From IMG/VR virus record IMGVR_UViG_3300025704_002294, positions 30,201-94,200 of that record: a DNA stretch of 64,000 nucleotides. The stretch is one strand, 5' to 3'. Source of the stretch: a virus. Positions 5,401 to 61,280 of this stretch are shown here, one piece after another (positions within the stretch are counted from its first letter, which is position 1; each line of letters starts with the position of its first letter). The notes under the pieces are model-generated. The model was not told the origin of the DNA, searched no databases, and saw only the letters and a program-made list of their open reading frames with translations. Made by a program: the position numbers and the translations under genes.

Positions 5401-8400
5401 ATGACAAATATTCAGACGTATTCCAGATGAGGCTCACACAGAGATTAAGAGACAGGTTAGATCATTTGAAAGATCTAGAAAGGGAAGACAAAGAAAAATT
5501 TGTAACTATTGCTAAACAAGTAAGCAAATTAGGATTAGAATTATTGGAAGGCTTAAAACCTAGACCAGATCTTTGGGCCGAAGATGAAAATGGATACACA
5601 CAAATCAACCGTGGCTCCGATGGAGAATCAAACTTGGCTTCGCATAGTAGTTTAGAACGTTGGAACGATGTAATGGACAGGCTTGTAAAAGCAGACAGTG
5701 AAATAGAGGCAGATGAACAAACATTTAATTTGCCTGCTCTTATAGATGATTATGTAGTAGGATCTATGCATATGGATAGATATTTTGCTTGGAAAGAAAA
5801 CAACGGGCCTGAGCAAGGTGCTGTTCTAAGACAATTACATAAAGAAAGATTTGCGGCAATAAAAAAATTCTTATCAGGATTTGATAAAATATTCCAGAAA
5901 GAAGGATTTGTAAATCTTAAACAAGAAATACAAGCAAAAAATACATTAGATAGAAGAAATAGAGACTTTGAAAAGAATGTCAGAGACAACGCAAAAGCAA
6001 AACTTAATATACCAAGTCACAGTTGGGTGTATATAGACCGAGACTTTTTTGATACTATCACAGATGAAGACTATGACGACAGAGAAGCATATTTAGATAG
6101 CAATTTAGATCATTTTAACGACAAAGTAAACCAGAGTAAAGTTTATGTTATACCTTCCAGTCACTGGAGTGATGCCGAAGATGCCACAAACGGTTTAGAA
6201 CTTATAGACACTTTTGAAAAAAATAAAAACTATTATCACACTTGGCGTAAAAAGGGTTATAAAAAAATAGTAAATAGATTCAACAACAAATATGGTTATA
6301 GTTGGAAGGACTTAAATGTCAAAGAAGCATTCATTCAAGGCGATGGTGATGTATACCACAAATTAAAAAATATCGGTATTGAAGTCACTCACAAAGGCGA
6401 CAGCAGAAAAGGTGCACCTGGACAAGACGATTTATTCCCAGATGAAGAAACACAAAATCCCAAAAGCGGTGAACCACTAAACAGAAGCAGTGGTATAAGT
6501 TGGGAAAATATGGATGATGAGGCAGAGCAAAAACGTTTTGATGCATTTGATTGGGAACAGTACCCAGCAAAAATGAAAGATGTAGTTGCTAAAGAAATGG
6601 CCAACAAACAAAGCAGTGGTGGTAGTTTTAAGGTAGCATTAGATAATATACTTAAAAAAGTACTTGACGGCGATGTAGGTATAGACAAAGACGATCTAGG
6701 CAAACCCTTAGACAAGATGGCTATAGCGGCTGGTATTGAACCCGACAATGGTGGTTCCTCAAATGGCATAGCAGGTGAAACAGATTGGGGCAATTTAGCA
6801 GACCATTTAGGAATAGAACGTGGCGTAAATGACCAGGGTGTAAACTTATTGAGAAAAGTATATCAACAGTTTGATGGCGACCACAACTGGAGACCTGCTG
6901 AAACCGACGAGAACGGCAAAAATGTAATTGGATTAGCAAGATGGGGTGCCGCAGTAAGAGATGCAGAAAAATATATCAGAGACAACTACAATGTGAGTGG
7001 TGGTAACTATTTTAGAAAAGATGCAGACGGTAATGATGACGATGATGTAAGCGGAGTATACGGAAGTTCAGATTGGACAAATACAGATTACGATAAAGCC
7101 AGGAAACACAGATTGTTTAATATTATGATGCAACAGGGAATGCAGAATTACTTACCAAAAGGCGAAGTAAATAAATTGGTAGCATTTTTAAACAATCCTC
7201 AGCAAGACACCAACTTTAAGAAAGAGGTTTTAGCAATACTTAGACTTAATGGACCTTTTGATACGTTTATGGGTGCCGTAAATGCGGCAAAAGAAATTTC
7301 ACAAGAAAGTATCTTTACCAAGTTTGATAAACTGCCTTTACAAGAACAGTTGCGTATATTACACGAATCAAATGTATTAGAAAAATTTACAAGAAATGAA
7401 AATACAATAAATACTAATATGAAAAAGTTTAACGAAGGCGAAGAAAGAAGTATTATTGCTAACAGTTGTGTTGAAAAATTAGTAGATGAGTTTAGTGGAA
7501 GAGAAAATCAATTTGCAAACAAAGATGATTTAGAATATGCAATATACCAAGCACTAGAAGACCTAGATGTAGAAGATTGTGTAGACCCAGAGATGGAAGT
7601 AGGCGGACAACCAATTGGGCACTTTGCTAGTGGCAGAGTAATTGATTGTTGCAGTAGCAGTGACATTATATATGATGTTATGGCTCATATGGACGAAACA
7701 CAAATAGGTGAAGCAAAAAAACCAAAAATGCCAAAGCAGAATAATCCAGTAGCAAAGAACAGCAAAAACATGCCAGGTGCTGGCGCACACAAATCACCAA
7801 AAGATTACGATAGAAAAAAAATTAAAGCAGATATCCGCAAAGAATTAGATGACAGTACCTATGTAAATAATATTATGCCTAGTGTTTTTGAAAGATTTGA
7901 AAAATTACCAATACAAAAACAATTAGAATTATTGAACACACCTATTGTTGAGGGTTATTTTAAAAATTTAGATACTATAGACAAAGAACAGAAAAGACTA
8001 GGAGTAGGAAAATATAATAAAGTAAGTAAAAGTGTTAAAAAGCCTGCCGGATCATATAATAAAGAACAGCATATAAAAAATACTTACAACAAGTTTAAAA
8101 CACAACATGGCGAAGTAAAGGCACAGGCTATGTTAAATAAAATGATCGACCGTGGATACTTTGACAAATCAAAAACAGAAAGTTTGTTAGGCATAGATGT
8201 ATTATTAAGAACTAAAAGACTAACAGAAAACATGCCTAACAATAACAAACTTGCTATACTAAAAAAATTATTATCAAAACATTTTCCAGTTGGTAATTTA
8301 GATATGCAATTCCAGGCATATTTAGCATTACCAATACCAAGGATGATGACAGCATTTAGCCAATTAAAAAGCATAGAAGGGCCAGAAGCATGTGGTAGAG

Positions 8401-29739: not shown

Positions 29740-30554
29740 AAAAAATAAGTGTACTATTAGCAACAAGACAAAGAACAGAAATGCTTGATAAAAGCATTGA
29801 CAGTTTATTAAAAAATGTAAGCAATACAGATAATGTTGAAATTATGTTAGGTATTGACAATGATGATCACGAAACATTAGATTTTGTACAGTCAGATGAC
29901 TTTCAAAATAAAATGCAAGATGAATATAACGTTGATGTACAAGCAGTAGTATTTGATAGACTAGGTTATAAAAATTTACATCAATATATGAATCAACTTT
30001 GGGGTAAAGCAAATGGCGAATGGCTAATGCTGTGGAACGATGATGCTATTATGGAAAGCAAAGATTGGGATTTAGAAATAGGCAAATTTGATGAAGAATT
30101 TGCATTACTTAAATTTAATCAAACAAATCATGACCACCCATACGCATTGTTTCCTGTAATACCCACAGACTGGTGCAGACTTATTGGTACCTTTAGTATG
30201 AATTCACAAAACGATGCTTGGCTTAATTTAATTGCTAAACCATTAGGTATTATTAAAGATATTCCTGTAGATGTATTACATGATAGATTTGATCTTACTG
30301 GTAATAATGACGATGAAATATTTAGAAGCAGAGAATATGCTGAAGGAAATCCGCAAGATCCAAATGATTTAATGAGCGAAAATAATATCAGAATGAGAGA
30401 TGCAATTATACACAAGATTGCATGGTATTGTAACCGTATAGGGCAAACAGAAACTAGCGATTACTTCGATAAAGTAAAAGCAGGGGATTTAGATCCTTTT
30501 GAAGATTGGAAAAAAGTTAGGGAAAGTGCAGTAGGATTAGGCTCTGGTTTATAA
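29736..30554 (+). CDS. GT-A fold glycosyltransferase
   Basis: The 272-residue protein starts with a nucleotide-sugar fold (KKISVLLATRQRTEMLDKSI) and has LGIDNDDHET near 38 and MLWNDDAIMES near 96-106, in the place of the D-x-D metal site. It starts in an ATGA overlap with the preceding glycosyltransferase, so they are co-translated and may act in sequence. Confidence 0.78.
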   Translation: MKKISVLLATRQRTEMLDKSIDSLLKNVSNTDNVEIMLGIDNDDHETLDFVQSDDFQNKMQDEYNVDVQAVVFDRLGYKNLHQYMNQLWGKANGEWLMLWNDDAIMESKDWDLEIGKFDEEFALLKFNQTNHDHPYALFPVIPTDWCRLIGTFSMNSQNDAWLNLIAKPLGIIKDIPVDVLHDRFDLTGNNDDEIFRSREYAEGNPQDPNDLMSENNIRMRDAIIHKIAWYCNRIGQTETSDYFDKVKAGDLDPFEDWKKVRESAVGLGSGL

Positions 30555-39735: not shown

Positions 39736-42117
39736 CTACCAGGCGCGGCAACTCCAGTACCTTGCTTTAGTACGAGGACCCGGATTATCACAGTTGTGTC
39801 TTGCTCTAAAACTCTTGCGTCTTGCTGGATTAGACTTTTTAATTTTCATAGTCTTTTGCCCGGCTTTTTTAGCACTAGTACCACCATGTCCAAAGTTTAC
39901 CTTTTTCACATTTCCTGTTTTAGGATCTTTTACATAAACTTTAAACTTCTTAACATCGCCTCTAGTTGGTTTGCCCAACTTAACTTTACGTCCTTGATAT
40001 TCTGCTTCATTCTTAACTAATTTAAGTTCAGGCTTTTTATATCCTTTAAGGTAATAATCTACTTCCTTATCTGATAGTCTTGGAAAATAGTTTCTAAACT
40101 CTGTTTCTAAATCAACATCTTTACCATAACTGTTTATTATTTGCATAATAACTTCTTTGGCAGATGCATCTGTGATTTCATTGAGTTGATCTAAGCCTGC
40201 TAATTTTTTTAATTCTGCTAATTGTCTAGCACCTTCGACAACAATGTCTTCTGCTAGTTCGTCCCAACCAATTAATATGTTTTCGTTTACAACATGTAAC
40301 ACAGGTACAACAATACCTTCGCCATCTGCTGTTTCAATCATTAACTCGTCGCCTGCTTGTATGCTTTCTTCCTTTTTCCTCTTTTTAGGCTTATCGTGTT
40401 TGTCGACAGTATCAGTTCCAAATGTATCTTCAATTCTGCCTTCGTTCTTTTTACAAGAACCTTTTTCGCCTGCTTTTTTACCTGGGACTTTGCTGTAACC
40501 TGTCCAGCACTTTTTATATATTTTGCTATTACCATGCTGTTCGCCTTCAGCAATACCAAGTTCGTGTTTGGCATTTTTTACATAATTACTAAAACGTAAA
40601 CTTGCTCTATTTTTTTTTGTTTCTCCATGTGACTGTTCCCATTCCCAGTATGTGGGCCAATCTAATGGCCTATTATCCATTGTTACTGGCAACATATAGT
40701 CACTAGTGGTTTCTATTTCTTTCCATTTATTTTCGTTCATGTTCTCTCCCATACTAGCATGTTTGGCCGCCATGTGATTTTTGTATTTTGCTGAGCCTTT
40801 CTTATGTGGGGATTTGCCTTCTAAATACTTGTCAAGATATTTTTCTTGTTGTTTTGTTCCTAATTCTTTAAAATCCTCTTCTGTTTTACCAGGATTCAAC
40901 TTTTTAAAATCATCTACTGCTTTTTTATACCCTGAATTTGATCGTTGTAAAAATGGCACTTGATCTTCAGTGGTTAAACCTGCTTTCTTCATTCCTTTGG
41001 CAACTAAACTGGCTCTTTGTGCTCTGCCCAAATTTGGATATTCCTGATTAACATACTGTAATGTATCTCTAGGATCTTGCCCACTTGACTTTAATTGCTT
41101 GGCTGTACTAGCCGCAAAGTCTATAACTGCTTCGTCGCCCGGATAGTTATCTTTTGCTTGTTGTCTTTGTGCTTGACGTTCATCATGGTCTTTAATTGCC
41201 TTCCAACTTACTGTGTCGCCATCATAAGTTAATTCACCATCGTCACAACCATAATTACCAAATCCATAACAATCTTCATTATCCTCTACATTAGGACATT
41301 CTGGACAATGGCCGTCTTTAACATACTCTGCTTCGACACTATTTGATTGTGCTAACGCATCCTGTAATTGATCGTATGCTTCTTGTCTTTCTTCAGCATC
41401 GTAATAACCATCAGGTTCGCCTATCATGTTATTTGTATAACCACCTCTTGCTGGATTATAATCAGGTGCACCCATCATCTTTTGTTCGATTTCGTTTAAA
41501 TCGTTTGTCATATCTATCTCTTCATTTGCGTGGTCGTGTCCTGGACACTCGCAATCTTTTTCCATTCTGCCACAGTCTACACATTTGTTAAGTCCTTTAG
41601 CCTTATTAATAGGATCTGCATTTACATAAGGTAAATGTCCTTTAGCCTTATTAATAGGAGCCATCTGTCTCATATGTCTATCCCACGGATCTTCCTCTGC
41701 TTCTTCTATGTTTTCTGGATCTGCTTTTTTGACTGTATATTTGACTTTTGGACTTCTTTGTTGTAATTCTTCTGCCGCCTTTTTGGCATCTGATAAACTA
41801 CTATACCTAGCAGTAACATCCTTGCCATCAGCAAAAATACCATAAATTGCATCACTTGGTGCTTTCTCTTCGATGTTATCATCATCCATACCTACATAAC
41901 GCCAGTTCCAAGCACCTGCGCCTATGTAACCATCTTGTACATAGCCTGCCATGTGCATAGCATCATCGCTCTTTATACCCTTCTTATCAGCCCATTGACC
42001 AATGTACCAGGTACGGGTTTTAGCATCTACATCAGCAAACTTCCTGACTATTTCAGGGTTTGCCTTGGGATTGTCTGATGCGTAGTTTATTGCTTCTAGT
42101 AATGATTGTAAATTCAT
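39736..42117 (-). CDS. Large virion-type protein with Cys motifs and LAGL element
   Basis: The 793-residue protein is charged and modular. It has a repeated PINKAKG element near residue 154-170, zinc-type pairs (CVDCGRMEKDCECPGHD near 178; CPECPNVEDNEDC near 274), a CWTGYSKVPGKKAGEKGSC block near 535, LKKLAGLDQLNEI near 645, and a basic C-terminal module with ARRKSFRARHNCDNPG and ARYWSCRAW. That terminal module recurs in marine T4-like virion proteins, as I recall. The start is fixed by a late octamer 5 nt upstream. Confidence 0.7.
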   Translation of the reverse strand: MNLQSLLEAINYASDNPKANPEIVRKFADVDAKTRTWYIGQWADKKGIKSDDAMHMAGYVQDGYIGAGAWNWRYVGMDDDNIEEKAPSDAIYGIFADGKDVTARYSSLSDAKKAAEELQQRSPKVKYTVKKADPENIEEAEEDPWDRHMRQMAPINKAKGHLPYVNADPINKAKGLNKCVDCGRMEKDCECPGHDHANEEIDMTNDLNEIEQKMMGAPDYNPARGGYTNNMIGEPDGYYDAEERQEAYDQLQDALAQSNSVEAEYVKDGHCPECPNVEDNEDCYGFGNYGCDDGELTYDGDTVSWKAIKDHDERQAQRQQAKDNYPGDEAVIDFAASTAKQLKSSGQDPRDTLQYVNQEYPNLGRAQRASLVAKGMKKAGLTTEDQVPFLQRSNSGYKKAVDDFKKLNPGKTEEDFKELGTKQQEKYLDKYLEGKSPHKKGSAKYKNHMAAKHASMGENMNENKWKEIETTSDYMLPVTMDNRPLDWPTYWEWEQSHGETKKNRASLRFSNYVKNAKHELGIAEGEQHGNSKIYKKCWTGYSKVPGKKAGEKGSCKKNEGRIEDTFGTDTVDKHDKPKKRKKEESIQAGDELMIETADGEGIVVPVLHVVNENILIGWDELAEDIVVEGARQLAELKKLAGLDQLNEITDASAKEVIMQIINSYGKDVDLETEFRNYFPRLSDKEVDYYLKGYKKPELKLVKNEAEYQGRKVKLGKPTRGDVKKFKVYVKDPKTGNVKKVNFGHGGTSAKKAGQKTMKIKKSNPARRKSFRARHNCDNPGPRTKARYWSCRAW

Positions 42118-53341: not shown

Positions 53342-54724
53342 TTACTGATTGAATTCTTCGTCTACTTTCCTTCTAAAATTATAATAATTGTTTACACACA
53401 GATTTGCCATGTCGGCAAATTGATTTAATTGAAAATCTGTGCTATAAAATAAATCTAAATTAAATTTACAAATTTCCAAAACTTTATCTCTATCAGGGGG
53501 ATTATCTAGAAATGTTTTTATAGAATCTAGTACCATCTTGTATCTAACTTCAGCATCAGTTTCTTTGTCATACGATTCATCTATAAGACCGTCGAATGTT
53601 TTAAACCCTAATTGTCTAACTTTAAGTAAACTAAAAGCATTTCCTAAAATTACAAAAGGCATTCCCCATGCAATTGGTTTGAACACTTTTTCACTGATAA
53701 ACCTAATAGGGTAATGCGTATAACCCTGCTGAAGTAGTTGAGATTCCACTGACATATAACTTTCTGTGCCAACATATAATTTTGATTTAAGAATCCAGTC
53801 ATAATTTGCAACAGAGTCATGTTGCATAAATCCATCAACACTTATATTATGCTCTGGTTCGCTATCAGCAAGAATAGGCAACGTGAAATCTTTTAAAATA
53901 TCACTTGCTTCTCCTACTTCATTAATTTCTTGTAAACTATAAAAACTATTATCTAAATACCCATCCTTGTACAAATCGTTAACTATAGCGGCTCTGTGTG
54001 CTTTGTATGTACGGTTTAACAGTAACAAATCTTTACTTTTTTCTGTTTTTTGTTGCAATTCAAAAAATGAATTTATATCAAAGTCTGTCTTGTTATCTAA
54101 CTTAGACCCATGGTAGGTGACACCACTTTGCACCCATGTATCATATAAAAAATATTCAAATACTACAATACTTGCAGGAATTTTATTTACAGTTAACCAT
54201 TTTTGTAAACCATTATGTGAATTAGGTTTTATAATATTGATATTAAAAGGTGCTACTGCATCGTTGCATTCTTTAATAAACTCAAAAACATTATACATAG
54301 ATAGTGTTGGATTATGGTCTAAAAATTCTGGTTCCCATACATCTGATATAACTATATTAAAATTAGGAACTGCCTTTAGCCAAAATTCACGCGAAAGGAC
54401 ACAGGCAAGATGCTCACTCATAGTAATATAAATTATTATTTCGTCGTCGTATGAATCAGACAGTCGTCTGCCTATTTGATCTAATAAATCAATATCATCC
54501 ACTGCAAGCCTAAATGGACTGATCGACACTTTTTTATCATACTTCGAAAAATCCAAATCGCTATTGTACATCGGAGATCTTGAAAGTACATGAAAAATAT
54601 CGTGTTCAATATAATCCTTACCTGTTAGACTTAATTCGTTTTCCATATGTTGAACTTTTGTTTCATCAACAAAATATCCAGTTGCATAAGTGCTTATATC
54701 TAAAGGTACAAAAATATTAATCAT
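53342..54724 (-). CDS. Glycosyltransferase-like protein (paralogous family member 3)
   Basis: The 460-residue product shares the C-terminal block with the genes at 11596, 47129 and 54717: SEKVFKPIAWGMPFVILGN, then RQLGFKTFDGLIDESYDKE at about 345-385. It overlaps the paralogue at 54717 by 8 nt. The N-terminal halves differ, suggesting different acceptors. No signal peptide or membrane segment. Confidence 0.6.
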   Translation of the reverse strand: MINIFVPLDISTYATGYFVDETKVQHMENELSLTGKDYIEHDIFHVLSRSPMYNSDLDFSKYDKKVSISPFRLAVDDIDLLDQIGRRLSDSYDDEIIIYITMSEHLACVLSREFWLKAVPNFNIVISDVWEPEFLDHNPTLSMYNVFEFIKECNDAVAPFNINIIKPNSHNGLQKWLTVNKIPASIVVFEYFLYDTWVQSGVTYHGSKLDNKTDFDINSFFELQQKTEKSKDLLLLNRTYKAHRAAIVNDLYKDGYLDNSFYSLQEINEVGEASDILKDFTLPILADSEPEHNISVDGFMQHDSVANYDWILKSKLYVGTESYMSVESQLLQQGYTHYPIRFISEKVFKPIAWGMPFVILGNAFSLLKVRQLGFKTFDGLIDESYDKETDAEVRYKMVLDSIKTFLDNPPDRDKVLEICKFNLDLFYSTDFQLNQFADMANLCVNNYYNFRRKVDEEFNQ

Positions 54725-56171
54725 CTATATTTTGTTCGTCAATTCTATCAATTATAATTCGCATCGGATCTACTAATCTGCTAGATACCCAATATGTGTC
54801 ATGTATCATATTAAAATTATGTACAAGCGAATCTTTGATTTCTTCAATGCTATGCTCTTCTGATAGAAATTTTTCGAAGGAATCAAACATGGCTTGTATT
54901 CGTAAATTAAAATTCTCTAGGTCATCATAACTTTCATCAAACCACTCTGGAAATGTTTTAAAACCTAAATCTCTTATACGTTGCAGGCCATGTTGGTTGC
55001 CTACAAATAGAAAAGGCATTCCCCACGCCATTGCTTTAAATGTTTTTTCTGTTAAAAATCTTACCGGGTGTGGAGGTGTATGCTCAATGATCAAATCTCT
55101 TGCTTGACTTTCTGTAATTATGTTTACTTTGCATTTTTGTGGCCATTTTAAATTAAATTTCCTGTCGTGGCGAATAGGTATATTGTTTCCTGATATGTTA
55201 TCATGCGGTTCAAATTCTGCTTGTTTTGGTAACATATTAATAATTTTACTATCTAATTCATGATCCTCTCCAGGTGTTACCATGCCCATTGGTTCTGCGC
55301 CACAACTCCATATCATGTTATCTAGCAATCCGCGTTTTTCTGCTTCTATAATAGTTGTTAGTCTGTGTTGCTTTGGCATCCTATTTAAAAGCAATGCATC
55401 ATATTCCTTGTCATCATGCCAAACACTATCCATAACTTTTTCTATATCAAATGGCTGATCGTCCATTGCTTCTTCCCAATCCATCATATCCATATTTCTG
55501 GAAGACTTTATACCACATGTATTGTTTACATCGAATAAAAAATATTCAAATGGCACAACTTCGAAATCTACGCCTTGTGACTGTAAAAAATGTGTATAAT
55601 CCTTGTCTGAATTAGATTTTATATAAAATCGTTTATGTTTACATTCTCCTGCAGGTCTAAGATGTCGTTTACAATTTTCTACAAAGTATTCCCATACTTC
55701 AACGTTATCATCACTTCCTGTTTGCGGTTTAGTATCTTTTTGAGGACCACATTCCCAAATATCACTCACCATAGCACTAAATTCTGGATGATTAAAAAAT
55801 TTACTAAAAATTGCACCTTGCAAACTAAATGCCGCTTTCTCCGAAATAGATATAACAACACGCCAATCTTGAATAGGTTCAAACCTTTTTACTAAATCTA
55901 CCCAAAACGGACTTTCAACATTGATTGCTTCGTTAATATCAATTGATACTGGATATATAAAATGATCTGATGTCAAATTAACGGAAATTTCTCTTCGTAA
56001 ACGTTTAGACCTGTGTAATACCCACCTAATATAATCATGTTTATTAACATAATTAAGTGTGTTATAGTCTTTATCATGTATAGAATCTGAGATAAAGGCT
56101 TTTGCTATTTTTTTCTGTACTGTATTATAATCGGTAGGATTTACAGTTGCGTTAACGAAAATTGTTCTCAT
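54717..56171 (-). CDS. Glycosyltransferase-like protein (paralogous family member 4)
   Basis: The 484-residue protein has TEKTFKAMAWGMPFLFVGN and RDLGFKTFPEWFDESYDD near 368-411, nearly the same as member 3, to which it is translationally coupled (8-nt overlap). A tandem duplication followed by divergence is likely. The 5' region has no clear late octamer. Confidence 0.6.
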   Translation of the reverse strand: MRTIFVNATVNPTDYNTVQKKIAKAFISDSIHDKDYNTLNYVNKHDYIRWVLHRSKRLRREISVNLTSDHFIYPVSIDINEAINVESPFWVDLVKRFEPIQDWRVVISISEKAAFSLQGAIFSKFFNHPEFSAMVSDIWECGPQKDTKPQTGSDDNVEVWEYFVENCKRHLRPAGECKHKRFYIKSNSDKDYTHFLQSQGVDFEVVPFEYFLFDVNNTCGIKSSRNMDMMDWEEAMDDQPFDIEKVMDSVWHDDKEYDALLLNRMPKQHRLTTIIEAEKRGLLDNMIWSCGAEPMGMVTPGEDHELDSKIINMLPKQAEFEPHDNISGNNIPIRHDRKFNLKWPQKCKVNIITESQARDLIIEHTPPHPVRFLTEKTFKAMAWGMPFLFVGNQHGLQRIRDLGFKTFPEWFDESYDDLENFNLRIQAMFDSFEKFLSEEHSIEEIKDSLVHNFNMIHDTYWVSSRLVDPMRIIIDRIDEQNIDD

Positions 56172-56186
56172 ATGTGTATATTATCC

Positions 56187-56194
56187 GATAAATA
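56187..56194 (+). promoter_or_regulatory. T4-type late promoter (GATAAATA), 5 nt before start codon
   Basis: The spacing rule points to the ATG at 56200 rather than the ATG at 56194, which overlaps the octamer. Confidence 0.65.
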
Positions 56195-56199
56195 TGTAT

Positions 56200-57804
56200 A
56201 TGATATTTGGTATTCTAACATTAATAACTGCTCTGGCTATTGCCGGTGTTGCCGCATGGTTTTCCATAGTCGGCTTAATGCTACTATTTAGTGGTATGCC
56301 ACTGAGTATAGCCGTAATGGCTGGCACACTTGAAGTAGGTAAACTACTAACAGCAAGTTGGCTGTACAGATATTGGAACGAAACATCCTTAATGTTACGG
56401 GCCTACCTCACGACCGCAGTTGTCATACTAATGGTTATTACAAGTATAGGTATCTTTGGTTATCTCAGCAAAGCCGCTGGAGATCAAGCAAGTAACACAG
56501 GAGATGCTGTAGCAATAGTAGAACGTGTAGATGCTCAAATAGCCAGAGAAGAAAATAAAATTGTAATATTAGAAGACAGAATACAAAGCATCGGTGGTTC
56601 CATTGATGTTAGTTCTAGCATAACACAACAAGAAGAAATCAGAGATGGTGCTTGGATTAGAGTTCAAGGTGACATTGATTACAACCAAGAACAAATAACC
56701 ACAGTTAGAGAACAACTCACAGTAGATCTCTCTCAACAGGATAGTAGATTAGCAGAACTAGATAAAGCAGTAAATGATTTAAGAAGTAAAGGTATAGAAA
56801 TTATCACACTCGACGAAGGCGGAATATTCCAAGGTGCTGAAACAGAAAAGATAGATTATGTAGCACAGGCTAACGAACTGCGAAATAGCCAAACAGATGA
56901 AAGAGATGAAATCAGAGATGAGAAGATTAGACTAAGAGATCAAGCAAGTAAAGACATTAAAGTTTTCCAAGATGCAATTGACAATTACAGGGCACAGGCG
57001 CAAGACACTATTAAAGGTGCTAATGATGAAATTAACAGATTGCGTGGCCAGAGTTCATCGCAGGCAGATGATAACTTAATAAAGATAGATACTTTTAACA
57101 GCGACATTGACGCCATTTACAGTAACATAGTAGCACTTAAAGACGAGAAATTTGACGCAGAACAAAAAGTTAGGACACTAGATAGAGAAGTAGGACCAAT
57201 TAAATACTTGGCACAATTAATATATGGTAATGACGAACGTGATGTGTTAGACCAGGCAATACGTTTATTCATTCTACTATTAGTATTTGTATTTGATCCA
57301 CTAGCAGTTATGCTAGTTATTGCCGCTAACCAAACATTATTACGTCATGGTATTAACTTAGAAAGCAGTGGTCCTCCACTACCACCAAAAGATCCAGACC
57401 CAGAACCGGAAGAAAGTGTGGAAGAATTTGAAATCGATGAAGCAACAGGCAGAGAAGTAGTAGAGGAAATATCAGACGAAGATTACAAACCACTGCCAAG
57501 TGCTGTTGATGATGCCGCTGATGTGATGAGTGATTACAATGGTAGAGATAAAACTTTCTTTGAAAGTATCAATGAGCCAATTGTTAATATTGACAATCAA
57601 AAAACAGCAGACATTGTAAATCAAATTGAGAAAACAGAAAAACTAGAAGACGACCTAAACAAAATATTAGGTGGCAAGACTAAATCGCAACTTTTACAAA
57701 TGGCACTAGATGGTGGTGTTGAAATACCTGCTCAATTTTCTAAAGCAGAAATTGTTGCCAACGTTATTGCTAACTACGACAGTATCACCAAAAAAAAAAT
57801 TTAA
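56200..57804 (+). CDS. Membrane/coiled-coil protein, 0-frame product of a probable -1 frameshift gene
   Basis: The 534-residue 0-frame product has three N-terminal hydrophobic segments (about residues 1-30, 33-58 and 68-92), a long coiled coil (about 105-330), another hydrophobic span (LFILLLVFVFDPLAVMLVIAA near 353) and an acidic Pro-rich tail. It ends abruptly after an A10 run (57790-57799) followed within two codons by TAA. The -1 frame from the same run stays open for 171 more codons with no start codon in its first 84 codons, so a frameshifted, longer protein is expected. A membrane-associated phage factor of unknown function. Confidence 0.75.
   Translation: MIFGILTLITALAIAGVAAWFSIVGLMLLFSGMPLSIAVMAGTLEVGKLLTASWLYRYWNETSLMLRAYLTTAVVILMVITSIGIFGYLSKAAGDQASNTGDAVAIVERVDAQIAREENKIVILEDRIQSIGGSIDVSSSITQQEEIRDGAWIRVQGDIDYNQEQITTVREQLTVDLSQQDSRLAELDKAVNDLRSKGIEIITLDEGGIFQGAETEKIDYVAQANELRNSQTDERDEIRDEKIRLRDQASKDIKVFQDAIDNYRAQAQDTIKGANDEINRLRGQSSSQADDNLIKIDTFNSDIDAIYSNIVALKDEKFDAEQKVRTLDREVGPIKYLAQLIYGNDERDVLDQAIRLFILLLVFVFDPLAVMLVIAANQTLLRHGINLESSGPPLPPKDPDPEPEESVEEFEIDEATGREVVEEISDEDYKPLPSAVDDAADVMSDYNGRDKTFFESINEPIVNIDNQKTADIVNQIEKTEKLEDDLNKILGGKTKSQLLQMALDGGVEIPAQFSKAEIVANVIANYDSITKKKI
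57790..57799 (+). promoter_or_regulatory. A10 slippery run for -1 frameshift
   Basis: Ten adenines contain the classical heptamer A AAA AAA in the 0 frame, followed by ATT TAA. Slipping back one base reads AAT TTA and enters the long open frame to 58313. Transcriptional slippage, or a homopolymer sequencing error, would give the same fused protein. Confidence 0.7.
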
Positions 57805-58313
57805 AAATCGACGAACTTGAAACCGAATTAAAAGATTCAGAATATAGGTATCAAAAGCAATTAGACGAATTAAACGATAAGTATAAACGAACACTAGAAA
57901 ATCTCGAAGATGTTAAGAATTCGCTTGACATAAAACCTAAAGAAGTTATAATAGAAAAAGAAATCATTAAGGAAGTTATTAAGGAGGTTCCTGTTGAGGT
58001 CGAGAAGGTTGTCACAATTGAGAAGGAGGTCCCTGTCACAAAGGAGGTCGTGGTCACTCGCGAAGTCGAAGTTCCCGGACCAGAGCGAATTGTTGAAGTC
58101 CCCGGACCAGAGCGAATCGTGGAAAGAATCGTGGAAGTCGAAGTCCCCGGACCAGAGCGAATTGTTGAAAAAATAGTCGAAGTTCCAGTAGCACCTAAAC
58201 CAAAACCAAAAGTACCAAACAGTTGGACATTTACTCCCAAAACTGAATTGCCAGTAGATAACAAAGAAAATCCTACAGATAGTAAATACTACATTAAGAA
58301 ACCTAAAAGTTAA
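57798..58313 (+). CDS. -1 frame extension: coiled coil, EVPGPERIV repeats and Pro-rich tail
   Basis: The -1 frame from the A10 run encodes a coiled coil (DELETELKDSEYRYQKQLDE and onward), a Val/Glu/Pro block of alternating V-P-V-E and K-E-V motifs, three near-perfect EVPGPERIV units, and a basic Pro/Lys tail ending KYYIKKPKS. The only start candidate in frame is a GTG at 58050 in mid-repeat, so the extension is best read as the C-terminus of the 56200 gene (full product about 704 residues). It overlaps clpX by 1 nt. Confidence 0.7.
   Translation, partial: NLKIDELETELKDSEYRYQKQLDELNDKYKRTLENLEDVKNSLDIKPKEVIIEKEIIKEVIKEVPVEVEKVVTIEKEVPVTKEVVVTREVEVPGPERIVEVPGPERIVERIVEVEVPGPERIVEKIVEVPVAPKPKPKVPNSWTFTPKTELPVDNKENPTDSKYYIKKPKS
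57925..57952 (+). promoter_or_regulatory. sigma70-like promoter (TTGACA-16-TATAAT)
   Basis: Both hexamers are perfect; the spacer is 16 bp. It lies inside the frameshift extension about 360 bp before clpX and could transcribe clpX separately. Confidence 0.45.
58068..58166 (+). repeat. Three 27-bp coding repeats (EVPGPERIV)
   Basis: Units at 58068-58094, 58095-58121 and 58140-58166 encode the same nonapeptide with only third-position changes. Codons such as CCC GGA CCA GAG CGA are GC-rich compared with the neighbourhood, suggesting recent amplification of a distinct unit. Confidence 0.85.
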
Positions 58314-59551
58314 TGACAGAAGACAACAGCACAGATAAAAACTCACTATCATGTAATTTTTGTGGCAAGCATAGAAGCGAAGTTAATAAACTTGTTGCAG
58401 GTCCAGATGTCTACATTTGCAACGAATGTATAGATTTATCATATAAAATTATAGACGATGAGTTCGACGATGATGACTTACAATTAGAAAACATTGCTGA
58501 TCCAAAAGAAATACGCGAGTACTTAGACCAATATATTGTAGGGCAAGAATATGCCAAAAAAGTTTTAAGTGTAAGTGCATACAATCATTATAAACGCATT
58601 GATTCACCTGTAGTAGATGGCGTCGAAATAGAAAAAAGTAATATACTAATGCTAGGTCCGTCTGGTGTTGGTAAAACATTACTTGCTAAAACACTATCTA
58701 AAAAACTAAAAGTACCTTTTACAATAGCAGATGCAACCACATTAACTGAAGCAGGGTATGTCGGTGAAGATGCAGAAAGTGTACTTGAAAGATTAATACA
58801 AGCCGCCAATGGAGATGTTGCTCTTGCTGAAAAAGGCATAGTGTTTATCGACGAATTAGATAAAAAGGCTCGTAGCAGTGAGTCTAACACATCTACACGT
58901 GATGTCAGTGGCGAAGGCGTCCAACAAGCACTCTTGAGATTAATAGAAGGCACAACAACGTACATAAACGTTGGTTCAAATAAATTATCAAGTGAAAAAA
59001 TAGAATTTAGCACTGATAATATTTTGTTTATATTGGGCGGAGCATTTGTCGGAATAGATAAAATTATTAAAGCAAGAGTAAACAAGAAAAATAAAATAGG
59101 ATTTAAATCTGCACTTGATAGCGAAAATGACTTAGACAAAGATGTTTATTTACATGCTACACATGAAGATATTATACAATACGGATTAATACCAGAACTA
59201 GTAGGAAGGGTACCTGTCTTAGCAGGTTTAACAACTTTGGATGTTAATGACTTAATACACATACAACAAGAAAGTAAAAATAGTGTTAGCAATCAAGTTA
59301 AGGCGTTATACAAACTTGAAGGAATAATTATAGGCTTTACAGATAACTTTTATAAAACAGTATCAGAAGAAGCAATCAAAATAAAAACAGGTGCTAGAGG
59401 TATAAGAAGTATTTTAGAAGCATATTTTATAGATTTAACATATAATATAACAGATCTTAAAGAGAAAAAAGTCAAAGAAATGTATATTAACGATCTAGAT
59501 CACAGTACAATTTCGTATATCAACGAGGTTGACAAACTAGATGATAACTAG
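58313..59551 (+). CDS. clpX: ATP-dependent protease unfoldase ClpX
   Basis: The 412-residue protein is a full ClpX: N-terminal zinc finger (Cys14, Cys17, Cys36, Cys39), Walker A GPSGVGKTLLAK near 118-128, pore loop AGYVGEDAE near 147, Walker B GIVFIDELDKKAR near 178, VSGEGVQQALLRL near 198, the ClpP-docking IGF loop in KKNKIGFKS, and the sensor-2 GARGIRS. It unfolds proteins and should dock host ClpP. Its start overlaps the preceding stop (TAATG). A perfect sigma70 promoter for bS21 lies in its 3' end. Confidence 0.95.
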   Translation: MTEDNSTDKNSLSCNFCGKHRSEVNKLVAGPDVYICNECIDLSYKIIDDEFDDDDLQLENIADPKEIREYLDQYIVGQEYAKKVLSVSAYNHYKRIDSPVVDGVEIEKSNILMLGPSGVGKTLLAKTLSKKLKVPFTIADATTLTEAGYVGEDAESVLERLIQAANGDVALAEKGIVFIDELDKKARSSESNTSTRDVSGEGVQQALLRLIEGTTTYINVGSNKLSSEKIEFSTDNILFILGGAFVGIDKIIKARVNKKNKIGFKSALDSENDLDKDVYLHATHEDIIQYGLIPELVGRVPVLAGLTTLDVNDLIHIQQESKNSVSNQVKALYKLEGIIIGFTDNFYKTVSEEAIKIKTGARGIRSILEAYFIDLTYNITDLKEKKVKEMYINDLDHSTISYINEVDKLDDN

Positions 59552-59557
59552 TATAAT
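59529..59557 (+). promoter_or_regulatory. Perfect sigma70 promoter TTGACA-17-TATAAT
   Basis: TTGACA 59529-59534 and TATAAT 59552-59557 overlap the clpX stop region; the ribosomal protein bS21 start is 27 nt downstream. Confidence 0.82.
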
Positions 59558-59584
59558 AAAAATAATATTAAAAAAGAGGTAAAG

Positions 59585-59998
59585 TTGAATAACAAATTTA
59601 AAGGAAATGATATCAAGAAAGGATATCAATATGATTACAAAAAGAAGCAAGACTTCAAAAAGAAGTTCGAGCCACGTGATCCATTTGATTCTGCAATATA
59701 CGTTCGCAATGGTAATGTAGACCAAGCAATCAGAACTTTAAAGAAAAAATTATTAAAAGATAATTTCCAAAAAGAACTTGCTAAAAGAGAATACTACGAA
59801 AAACCAAGTGCTAAACGTAAAAGAGTAAAAGCCACAGGTGTTAAAAAAGGACAAAAATTGTTGCGTGAGAAAATAATGAGAGGGGAAGCAATGCCTCCAG
59901 CAACAGTTGGCCAAAAACACCTTAAAGGTAAAAGATCACTAAACAAATATCGTGCAACTAAGAGGCTCATGCAACAAAGAGATTGGGCAAGGAAGTAA
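59585..59998 (+). CDS. rpsU: Ribosomal protein bS21 homologue with N- and C-terminal extensions
   Basis: The 137-residue protein uses a TTG start after GAGGT. Residues about 40-100 match bS21: AIYVRNGNVDQAIRTLKKK, REYYEKPSAKRKRVKA and GVKKGQKLLREK, equivalent to 'VRENEPFDVALRRFKR...REFYEKPTTERKRAKA' of bacterial bS21 (usual length 70-90). It has a Lys/Asp-rich N-terminal extension and a basic C-terminal tail of about 35 residues. bS21 binds the 30S platform near the Shine-Dalgarno helix and affects initiation. Expressed from a perfect sigma70 promoter. Confidence 0.87.
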   Translation: MNNKFKGNDIKKGYQYDYKKKQDFKKKFEPRDPFDSAIYVRNGNVDQAIRTLKKKLLKDNFQKELAKREYYEKPSAKRKRVKATGVKKGQKLLREKIMRGEAMPPATVGQKHLKGKRSLNKYRATKRLMQQRDWARK

Positions 59999-60000
59999 GA

Positions 60001-60798
60001 ATGAAATATGATTACGCACTCGTTAGTGGCGGGTTTGATCCTGTGCATCTTGGACATTTGCAAATGTTTAAAGATGCAAGTAAGTTAGCAGACAATGTAA
60101 TAGTGCTACTTAACAGCGACGAATGGCTTACTAGAAAGAAAGGCAGACCATTTATGGATCAAGTTCAGCGAAAAGCCATACTGGAAGAAATGAAGTGTGT
60201 AAGTCAAGTAATCATACAATCTCAAGATGTAGATGATAGTAGCAGTAATGCTATTATGAATTTTGCAATTAGAAATCCTGATGCAAGAATATGTTTTTGC
60301 AATGGCGGTGATCGTAGTGATACTAAAAGAATACGAGAAACAGATATATGCAATAAATACGATGTAGCACTAGAGTTCGGCATTGGCGGTGAAGCCAAAG
60401 TTGCAAGTAGTAGTAAGTTATTACAAGATTACACAACCACAGTCATTGAACGACCATGGGGCAGATACAGGCAACTATATGCCGGTGAAGGATATGTTGT
60501 TAAGGAACTTGAGATAGATCCAGGTAAAGAACTTAGTGATCAATTTCATTTTCACAGAAGCGAACACTGGATAGTATTAAGCGGTATAGGACATCTTAAA
60601 CAAGGTGCTACTAGACAAATGCCTGAAAGAGAATTTTATATTCCAGAAGGCGAAAGTGTGTATATTAGGCCAGCACAGACACACAAACTAAGTAACCCAG
60701 GCCAAGTGCCGTTGCGTATAGTCGAAGTTTGGGCAGGAGAGATATTAGAAGAAACCGACATTAAAAGATTGGATGTTGGACCAAATTACGGAGAATAA
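60001..60798 (+). CDS. Cytidylyltransferase-cupin (mannose-6-phosphate isomerase type) fusion
   Basis: The start at ATG 60001 gives 265 residues. The N-terminal half is an RfaE/TagD-like nucleotidyltransferase: GGFDPVHLGHLQMFKD with HxGH (His16-His19) and SSSKLLQDY near 137. The C-terminal half is a type II mannose-6-phosphate isomerase cupin: RPWGRYRQLY near 152, QFHFHRSEHWIVLSG near 180 with metal-binding His/Glu, QTHKLSNPG near 226 and EVWAGEILEETDIKR. It may activate and isomerise a sugar for envelope glycans. Confidence 0.88.
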   Translation: MKYDYALVSGGFDPVHLGHLQMFKDASKLADNVIVLLNSDEWLTRKKGRPFMDQVQRKAILEEMKCVSQVIIQSQDVDDSSSNAIMNFAIRNPDARICFCNGGDRSDTKRIRETDICNKYDVALEFGIGGEAKVASSSKLLQDYTTTVIERPWGRYRQLYAGEGYVVKELEIDPGKELSDQFHFHRSEHWIVLSGIGHLKQGATRQMPEREFYIPEGESVYIRPAQTHKLSNPGQVPLRIVEVWAGEILEETDIKRLDVGPNYGE

Positions 60799-60839
60799 TG
60801 AAAGAATTAGGAATGAGTTTATTAGGAAAATAAGGATAT

Positions 60840-61280
60840 ATGGAATTGAAAGATTTAAATGAATCGAAAGTATGCGATATACTTAATAGAATAGTGGAAT
60901 TAGAAATGGCTGGTGTAGTACGTTATGCTCACAGTTCACTAATGGTCAGAGGACCTAATAGGATTCCTATCGTGACATTCTTACAAGAACAAGCCAATGA
61001 AAGTTTAGCACACGCCTTGCAGGCAGGCGAATACATCACAGGCTTTAACGGTCACCCAAGTCAAAATATTTCGCCTATTGAAGAAAATCACAATCATAGT
61101 GTTGAACAAATTCTACAAGAAAGTTTAGCACATGAAATGGCGGCTGTAGAAATGTACAAAGTTCTATTAGAAGAAGTTGCAGATGCTAGTATAATGTTAG
61201 AAGAATATGCTAGAGGGCAGATTGGCATGGAAGAGCAACACGCATTAGAAATAAGGAAAATGCTACAAGACTACAGTTGA
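60840..61280 (+). CDS. Ferritin-like (bacterioferritin/Dps-type) protein
   Basis: The 146-residue protein is a four-helix bundle with di-iron-type Glu/His: ELEMAGVVRYAHSSLM near 20, QEQANESLAHALQAGEYIT near 50, LAHEMAAVEMYKVLLEE near 95 and ARGQIGMEEQHALEIRKML near 125. The E-x-x-H pairs occur in the ferritin places. It might store iron or detoxify peroxide. Its stop overlaps the next start (TGATG). Confidence 0.8.
   Translation: MELKDLNESKVCDILNRIVELEMAGVVRYAHSSLMVRGPNRIPIVTFLQEQANESLAHALQAGEYITGFNGHPSQNISPIEENHNHSVEQILQESLAHEMAAVEMYKVLLEEVADASIMLEEYARGQIGMEEQHALEIRKMLQDYS

Follow-up and report, generated by a model that had tools for sequence, protein, structure and literature searches.

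The Gene at the A10 Run and Its Two Reading Frames

The stretch of DNA analyzed here, which comes from an uncultured phage and is referred to as the window, comprises 64,000 nucleotides (positions 30,201 to 94,200 of IMG/VR record IMGVR_UViG_3300025704_002294, a virus record of 94.2 kb) and carries on its plus strand a membrane-protein gene whose open reading frame (ORF) closes just after a run of ten adenines (A10), from which a second frame, displaced by -1, stays open up to a clpX-like gene. The 0-frame ORF occupies 56194-57804 (+), its ATG lying at 56194 and not at 56200, where the original prediction, a reading of this sequence, had placed the start of the gene. Its product, the short form, has 536 amino acids (aa), ends in TKKKI and is laid out as membrane helices, a long coiled coil, a last membrane helix, an acidic/proline linker and an SAP/HeH-like C-terminal stretch. 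The A10 run at 57790-57799 (+) starts on a 0-frame codon boundary (codon phase 0), and the 0-frame end reads ACC AAA AAA AAA ATT TAA, with the stop codon TAA (57802-57804, +) being the second codon past the run. A heptamer of the X XXY YYZ type, A AAA AAA, is found in the 0 frame at 57792-57798.

The -1-frame extension spans 57798-58313 (+) and encodes 171 aa, reading NLKIDELETELKDSEYRYQ...YYIKKPKS and made up of a coiled coil, E/V/P/K repeats and a proline-rich tail, with three EVPGPERIV repeats at approximately 58068-58166 (+); its stop (58311-58313) overlaps the ATG of the clpX-like gene in the sequence TAATG. The first ATG, GTG or TTG in this frame is the GTG at 58050, which is codon 85, none of the three occurring in the preceding 84 codons, and the weaker start candidates in the first 50 codons are ATC and ATA only. 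As regards the run with its heptamer and adjacent stop (57790-57804), the 171 open codons lacking an early start, and the coiled coil, repeats and tail that they encode, the original prediction was confirmed. Upstream of 57774 the -1 frame is blocked, so that a -1 shift is confined to the 31 nucleotides (nt) at 57774-57804 (+), run included, the sole segment that is open in both frames. The long product has ~706 aa, and the peptide across the junction of the short form and the extension would read TKKKNLKIDELE. Judged from the homologues, recoding at A10 is very likely.

Conservation of the Run and of the Extension

A search of viral contigs yielded 28 and then 80 relatives of the gene, a set that was later enlarged. 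One of these, L001, which comes from another record and a separate assembly, matches the window at 99.99% identity over 11.6 kb and has the A10 run. L002 represents a different virus, with ~84% DNA identity over the aligned region and, in the 0-frame part, a nt identity of 0.81 and an amino-acid identity of 82%; it carries ACC-A10-TTTAAAAAT, with the frames arranged as in the window, and the presence of an identical A10 in so diverged a virus argues against a sequencing error. The run is also kept, as A9, in 17 further distinct contexts.

The -1-frame extension is 90% identical between the window and L002, and the ratio of nonsynonymous to synonymous substitution rates (dN/dS) for this pair is 0.156 in the -1 part and 0.163 in the 0-frame part; across the relatives in which the tail is likewise found in the -1 frame (L002, L055/L065/L068, L083 and L257) it is 0.11-0.17 in the -1 part. 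Sorted by position modulo 3, the differences between the window and L002 change from 8, 3 and 28 upstream of the run to 5, 17 and 9 downstream, and this switch of substitution periodicity at the run is expected if the reading frame changes there. These patterns indicate that the extension is under purifying selection in the -1 frame. By tblastn, the extension is homologous to the in-frame tails of relatives in which the gene is a single fused ORF and to the second ORFs of relatives in which it is split in two. A homologous N-terminal membrane/coiled-coil domain is found in Salicola SCTP-2 gene 195, Pelagibacter phage Mosig_00157, XacN1 ORF242 and others, an uncharacterized membrane-protein family of large phages; the SCTP-2 homologue also directly precedes clpX, and a run of at least nine A is absent from the two homologues inspected at the sequence level, those of SCTP-2 and Mosig. 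No relative was confirmed in the bacterial or archaeal genomes searched.

Three Architectures at One Junction

The family shows three architectures, across which the tails are homologous. The recoded class consists of the window, L002, L055/L056, L065/L066, L068, L083 and L257; the fused class has a single ORF, of ~630-680 aa in the main clade and shorter in distant members; and the split class has a short ORF and a second ORF in the +1 frame with an overlapping start codon. An alignment of homologues, originally proposed as a check, bore out that the recoded relatives keep the run at the same junction with the frames separate. The junction reads TCC AAA AAA AAA GAC TAG in L055, L065 and L068 (A9) and CCT AAA AAA AAA GAA TAA in L083 (A9), where the frame overlap is just 13 nt, and CAA AAA AAA AGA in L257 (A9), where the stop lies further down and the -1 frame is open for 201 codons without Met; these A9 cases amount to three or four lineages besides that of the window. 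None of these relatives, all of which fall outside the window clade, has an ATG close to the start of its continuing -1 frame, and in every recoded member A AAA AAA stands in the 0 frame and the shift is always -1. On a maximum-likelihood tree of the N-terminal domain the recoded state requires at least four changes, and the well-supported branches alone also force four. L257 falls outside this tree, and L088, which has A9 at the junction and an ORF broken upstream, was left out of it; the fused counts on the tree are approximate, as L054 (separate downstream ORFs) and L086 (no tail) are doubtfully labeled fused, which leaves the recoded class unaffected. The break in L088 is a frameshift at about codon 131, inside the coiled coil and upstream of the junction A9.

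Most fused members carry an in-frame A9 at the junction, CAA or GAA AAA AAA AG(A/T), in what amounts to a mirror image of the recoded arrangement. Comparison of L015 (GCC TCC CAA AAA AAA AGA) with L055 (GCC TCC AAA AAA AAA GAC TAG) shows that the latter lacks one base ahead of the run, by which the default and the slipped product swap. Loss of one A leads to a stop two codons past the run in fused L009 and L020 and in split-type L014, L062 and L072, and to a stop a few codons later in L012, L013, L015 and L018; the end SASQKKD that follows such a loss in L009 compares with SASKKKD, directly encoded before the stop in L055. The original prediction had held that homologues with both parts in one uninterrupted frame would count against recoding. 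Such homologues do exist (L009, L012, L015, L018, L020, L076 and others), but they do not refute it, because most of them carry the in-frame A9 at the junction and the class of the window is recurrent and stably kept.

Several further arrangements were seen at or near this junction. L124 and L133 have an A9 close to where the gene ends, and adding one A would give a long product, but they were not counted as recoded, because the gene that follows begins at a normal ATGA-coupled start. L068 resembles L055/L065 more closely in the tail and junction (82-86% nt identity) than in the N-terminal part (69%), and exchange of the tail module by recombination between lineages is possible. In L038, L039, L049, L053, L054, L070 and L072, the tail is broken up further, with a small middle ORF (~75-85 aa) and, in another frame, a third ORF; the two have separate starts, and both resemble the coiled-coil beginning of the tail. 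Finally, the split junction of L022/L023 holds an A8 (6426-6433), where deleting a single A would merge the two overlapping ORFs into one of 736 aa, and this pair, too, may be joined by slippage.

Avoidance of Long A Runs Elsewhere

No coding-strand A run of the 94.2-kb genome other than the A10 of the window exceeds nine, and 2 runs of at least nine are seen in it against ~7.5 expected from synonymous shuffling. In 58 relatives with a clpX-like neighbor (610 kb), 19 of the 20 distinct A/T runs of at least nine lie at this junction, one of them being that of L088, whose gene copy is broken upstream; the remaining run is a T9 elsewhere. For the genes other than this one in 49 non-redundant loci, with 361 kb of coding sequence, the same shuffling predicts 39.5 +/- 4.3 runs of at least nine A, and none is present; A8 runs number 6 versus 60 expected. 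The avoidance of A7-A9 in these genes holds in all three codon phases, including the A7 phase that lacks a ribosomal heptamer, and when 18 junctions are aligned, no column is invariant except the nine A's. That a long A run is kept at one junction and purged from other genes is a strong natural sign of slippage in use.

The second run of the window genome is an A9 at 40610-40618, on the coding strand of a minus-strand ORF (39736-42117), with the codons ACA AAA AAA AAT AGA, where the 793-aa protein would be cut to ~503 aa if one A were added. This run is not conserved in the L002 virus, the corresponding region of which differs and has no such run.

Proposed Transcriptional Slippage and Alternative Explanations

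The model favored here, with a probability of roughly 0.7, is that A10 is a programmed transcriptional-slippage site giving rise to a short and a long membrane protein. RNA polymerase would copy A10 faithfully in most transcripts, resulting in the 536-aa protein, and a fraction of the transcripts would gain one A (11 A, or a length equal to 11 modulo 3), on which the ribosome, without any shift of its own, would continue into the coiled-coil/PGPERIV/proline-rich tail and reach the end of the ~706-aa form where the clpX-like gene begins, the short:long ratio being set by the phage from one gene. In the fused relatives with an in-frame A9, unslipped transcripts would yield the long form and slipped ones a short form that in many cases stops just a few codons on, and the split relatives would have given the tail its own overlapping start codon. 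The production of two products from one gene via A10, as originally predicted, is strongly supported by the A10 of L002, the independent A9 cases and the conserved -1 frame. The run, the frames, the conservation of both the run and the -1 frame and the avoidance of such runs elsewhere are shown directly, whereas the occurrence of slippage, its placement in transcription, its rate and a function for both forms are inferred.

Of the two mechanisms that the original prediction had offered, transcriptional slippage fits better than ribosomal frameshifting, because the conserved unit is at least nine A, no Shine-Dalgarno-like sequence lies upstream of the run (ACGACAGTATCACC), and no downstream hairpin is conserved. 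Programmed -1 ribosomal frameshifting, in which two Lys-tRNAs would slip in tandem on A AAA AAA within A10 in a fraction of the ribosomes and give the same two products, is the principal alternative but is considered unlikely. A AAA AAA, present in the 0 frame of all recoded members with the shift always -1, is itself a good ribosomal slippery heptamer, and the downstream folds in L002, L055 and L068 are somewhat stable (z ~ -2), at differing positions, which makes a ribosomal contribution possible. Also to be set against the transcriptional model are the fused relatives L010, L085 and L087, which are without A9 and indicate that some lineages can do with one product, and the partial inheritance of A9 among the relatives through shared ancestry, by which the 19 runs are not 19 independent events. 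Against the ribosomal mechanism, folding without pseudoknots gave no downstream structure in the window (z 0.08) or in L083 (energy 0); seven A's or A AAA AAG would suffice for it, yet nine or ten are conserved; and in the fused relatives a -1 shift adds 2 to 26 codons, whereas deletion of one A often leads to a stop two codons past the run.

Phase variation at the DNA level, with slipped-strand mispairing at replication toggling the genome between short and long states, would draw on the hypermutability of long mononucleotide runs, and avoidance of such runs elsewhere would look alike (Baranov et al., PMC1088944). It is nevertheless very improbable, as the run length is fixed per state (A10 in both A10 viruses, exactly A9 in the fused lineages and in recoded L055/L065/L068), no A8, A11 or opposite-phase variants of these were found among the relatives, and fused and recoded members differ outside the run (TCC-C-A9 versus TCC-A9) and not in its length; it is this constancy within each class that speaks against toggling. 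Still less probable is that the -1 ORF is a separate gene, translated from the non-canonical start ATC 57807 or through re-initiation downstream of the TAA. In many relatives the tail does come from a second ORF that begins at an overlapping ATG of its own, but the 84 codons of the window that are free of ATG, GTG and TTG, the lack of ATG in the 201 codons of L257 and of any start in L083, and the differing distances of the 0-frame stops from the run all speak against this, and the conservation of the A run would be left unexplained. Least probable of all is that the arrangement reflects gene decay or a mistake in sequencing or assembly, which would accord with the error-prone nature of homopolymers and with the existence of fused-frame relatives; A10 is, however, also present in L001, from another record, and in the diverged L002, purifying selection acts in both frames, and four lineages or more show the pattern.

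Extended to the tailed-phage gene family as a whole, the transcriptional-slippage model would have slippage as a conserved device that sets the short/long ratio, with the default flipped repeatedly and a run of at least nine A kept at the junction, which on balance appears probable.

The Protein and Its Gene Neighborhood

Hydropathy, together with a structure model, tentatively places membrane helices at residues 1-46 and 64-95 and the last one near 350-383, and points to a long coiled coil of the antiparallel type. The model of residues 1-400 has a predicted local distance difference test (pLDDT) score of 70.6 and a predicted template modeling (pTM) score of 0.38; its PDB matches are generic coiled coils, none with E <0.001, and no relative was found in the PDB, and its best BFVD matches are uncharacterized phage proteins. 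No Pfam family was found for either the 0-frame part or the extension, and there is no Rfam match in 55000-61000. Residues 468-525 (57595-57768, +) weakly match the C-terminal half of phrog_3281 (endonuclease VII) and are SAP/HeH-like (E 4.9e-5). The tail of most relatives ends in GFWAxPLP...Y-x-x-K, of which the window retains the last part only.

The clpX-like gene (58313-59551, +), whose ATG overlaps the -1-frame stop, encodes zf-C4_ClpX and AAA domains and retains the ClpX zinc finger. One might guess that the membrane protein acts as a scaffold anchored in the membrane, that its tail contacts a partner such as the phage ClpX, and that slippage tunes the ratio of the forms. The genes at 58313-61280 are the clpX-like gene (zinc finger, IGF motif), followed by those for an S21-like ribosomal protein, a fusion of a cytidylyltransferase-like protein with a mannose-6-phosphate-isomerase-type cupin, and a ferritin-like protein. 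On the other side, at 53342-56171 (minus strand), adjacent ORFs of 460 and 484 aa have similar closing motifs (VFKPIAWGMPFVILGN / TFKAMAWGMPFLFVGN), show no family match and are perhaps a duplicated pair.

Relation to Known Systems and Significance

Examples of programmed transcriptional slippage are known from genes of bacteria, insertion sequence (IS) elements and RNA viruses. The lambda-type G/GT gene is located between the genes for the major tail protein and the tape measure and encodes a soluble chaperone; the window gene, in contrast, encodes a membrane protein, is followed by the clpX-like gene and lies outside a tail cassette. The two are alike in being phage genes in which the -1 frame supplies, or in the window is predicted to supply, a C-terminally extended minor product, the ratio of which probably matters, and they differ in that recoding in lambda is ribosomal and concerns a different gene, position and site.

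Closer parallels are found in bacteria. In tssM1 of Citrobacter rodentium and tssM3 of Yersinia pseudotuberculosis, transcriptional frameshifting with 15-25% slippage is used in mirror-image fashion (PMC4256274): a poly-A run near the 0-frame stop gives two lengths of an inner-membrane protein, and slippage leads to the long form in one species and to the short form in the other, as is predicted for the recoded and fused members described here. In distinction from the phage site, tssM is a bacterial secretion gene with an A11 demonstrated in the laboratory, and the run is rare in the tssM family, whereas it recurs at one junction across the phage family. The dnaX gene of Thermus thermophilus has an in-frame A9, with unslipped RNA giving the long product and slipped RNA reaching a nearby stop to give the short one (PMC1088944), which is the arrangement of the fused relatives; the protein is unrelated, and the default in the window is the opposite (short). 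Nine A/T is also the length at which selection against slippage appears in many bacteria, and conservation of the shifted-frame extension among homologues, which is seen here in L002, L055/L065/L068, L083 and L257, is the criterion used for slippage genes (Baranov et al. 2005, PMC1088944).

The tailed-phage recoding sites found described are ribosomal, mostly in tail-chaperone genes. In the part of the literature covered, no report of programmed transcriptional slippage in a tailed-phage gene was found, and in tailed phages the phenomenon is apparently unreported. Gene callers cut proteins of the window type short and miss their tail, and the prediction of two products is testable by a simple reporter. 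With its slip-to-long, slip-to-short, fused-without-run and split-with-own-start members, the family constitutes a comparative series for the origin and loss of recoding sites.
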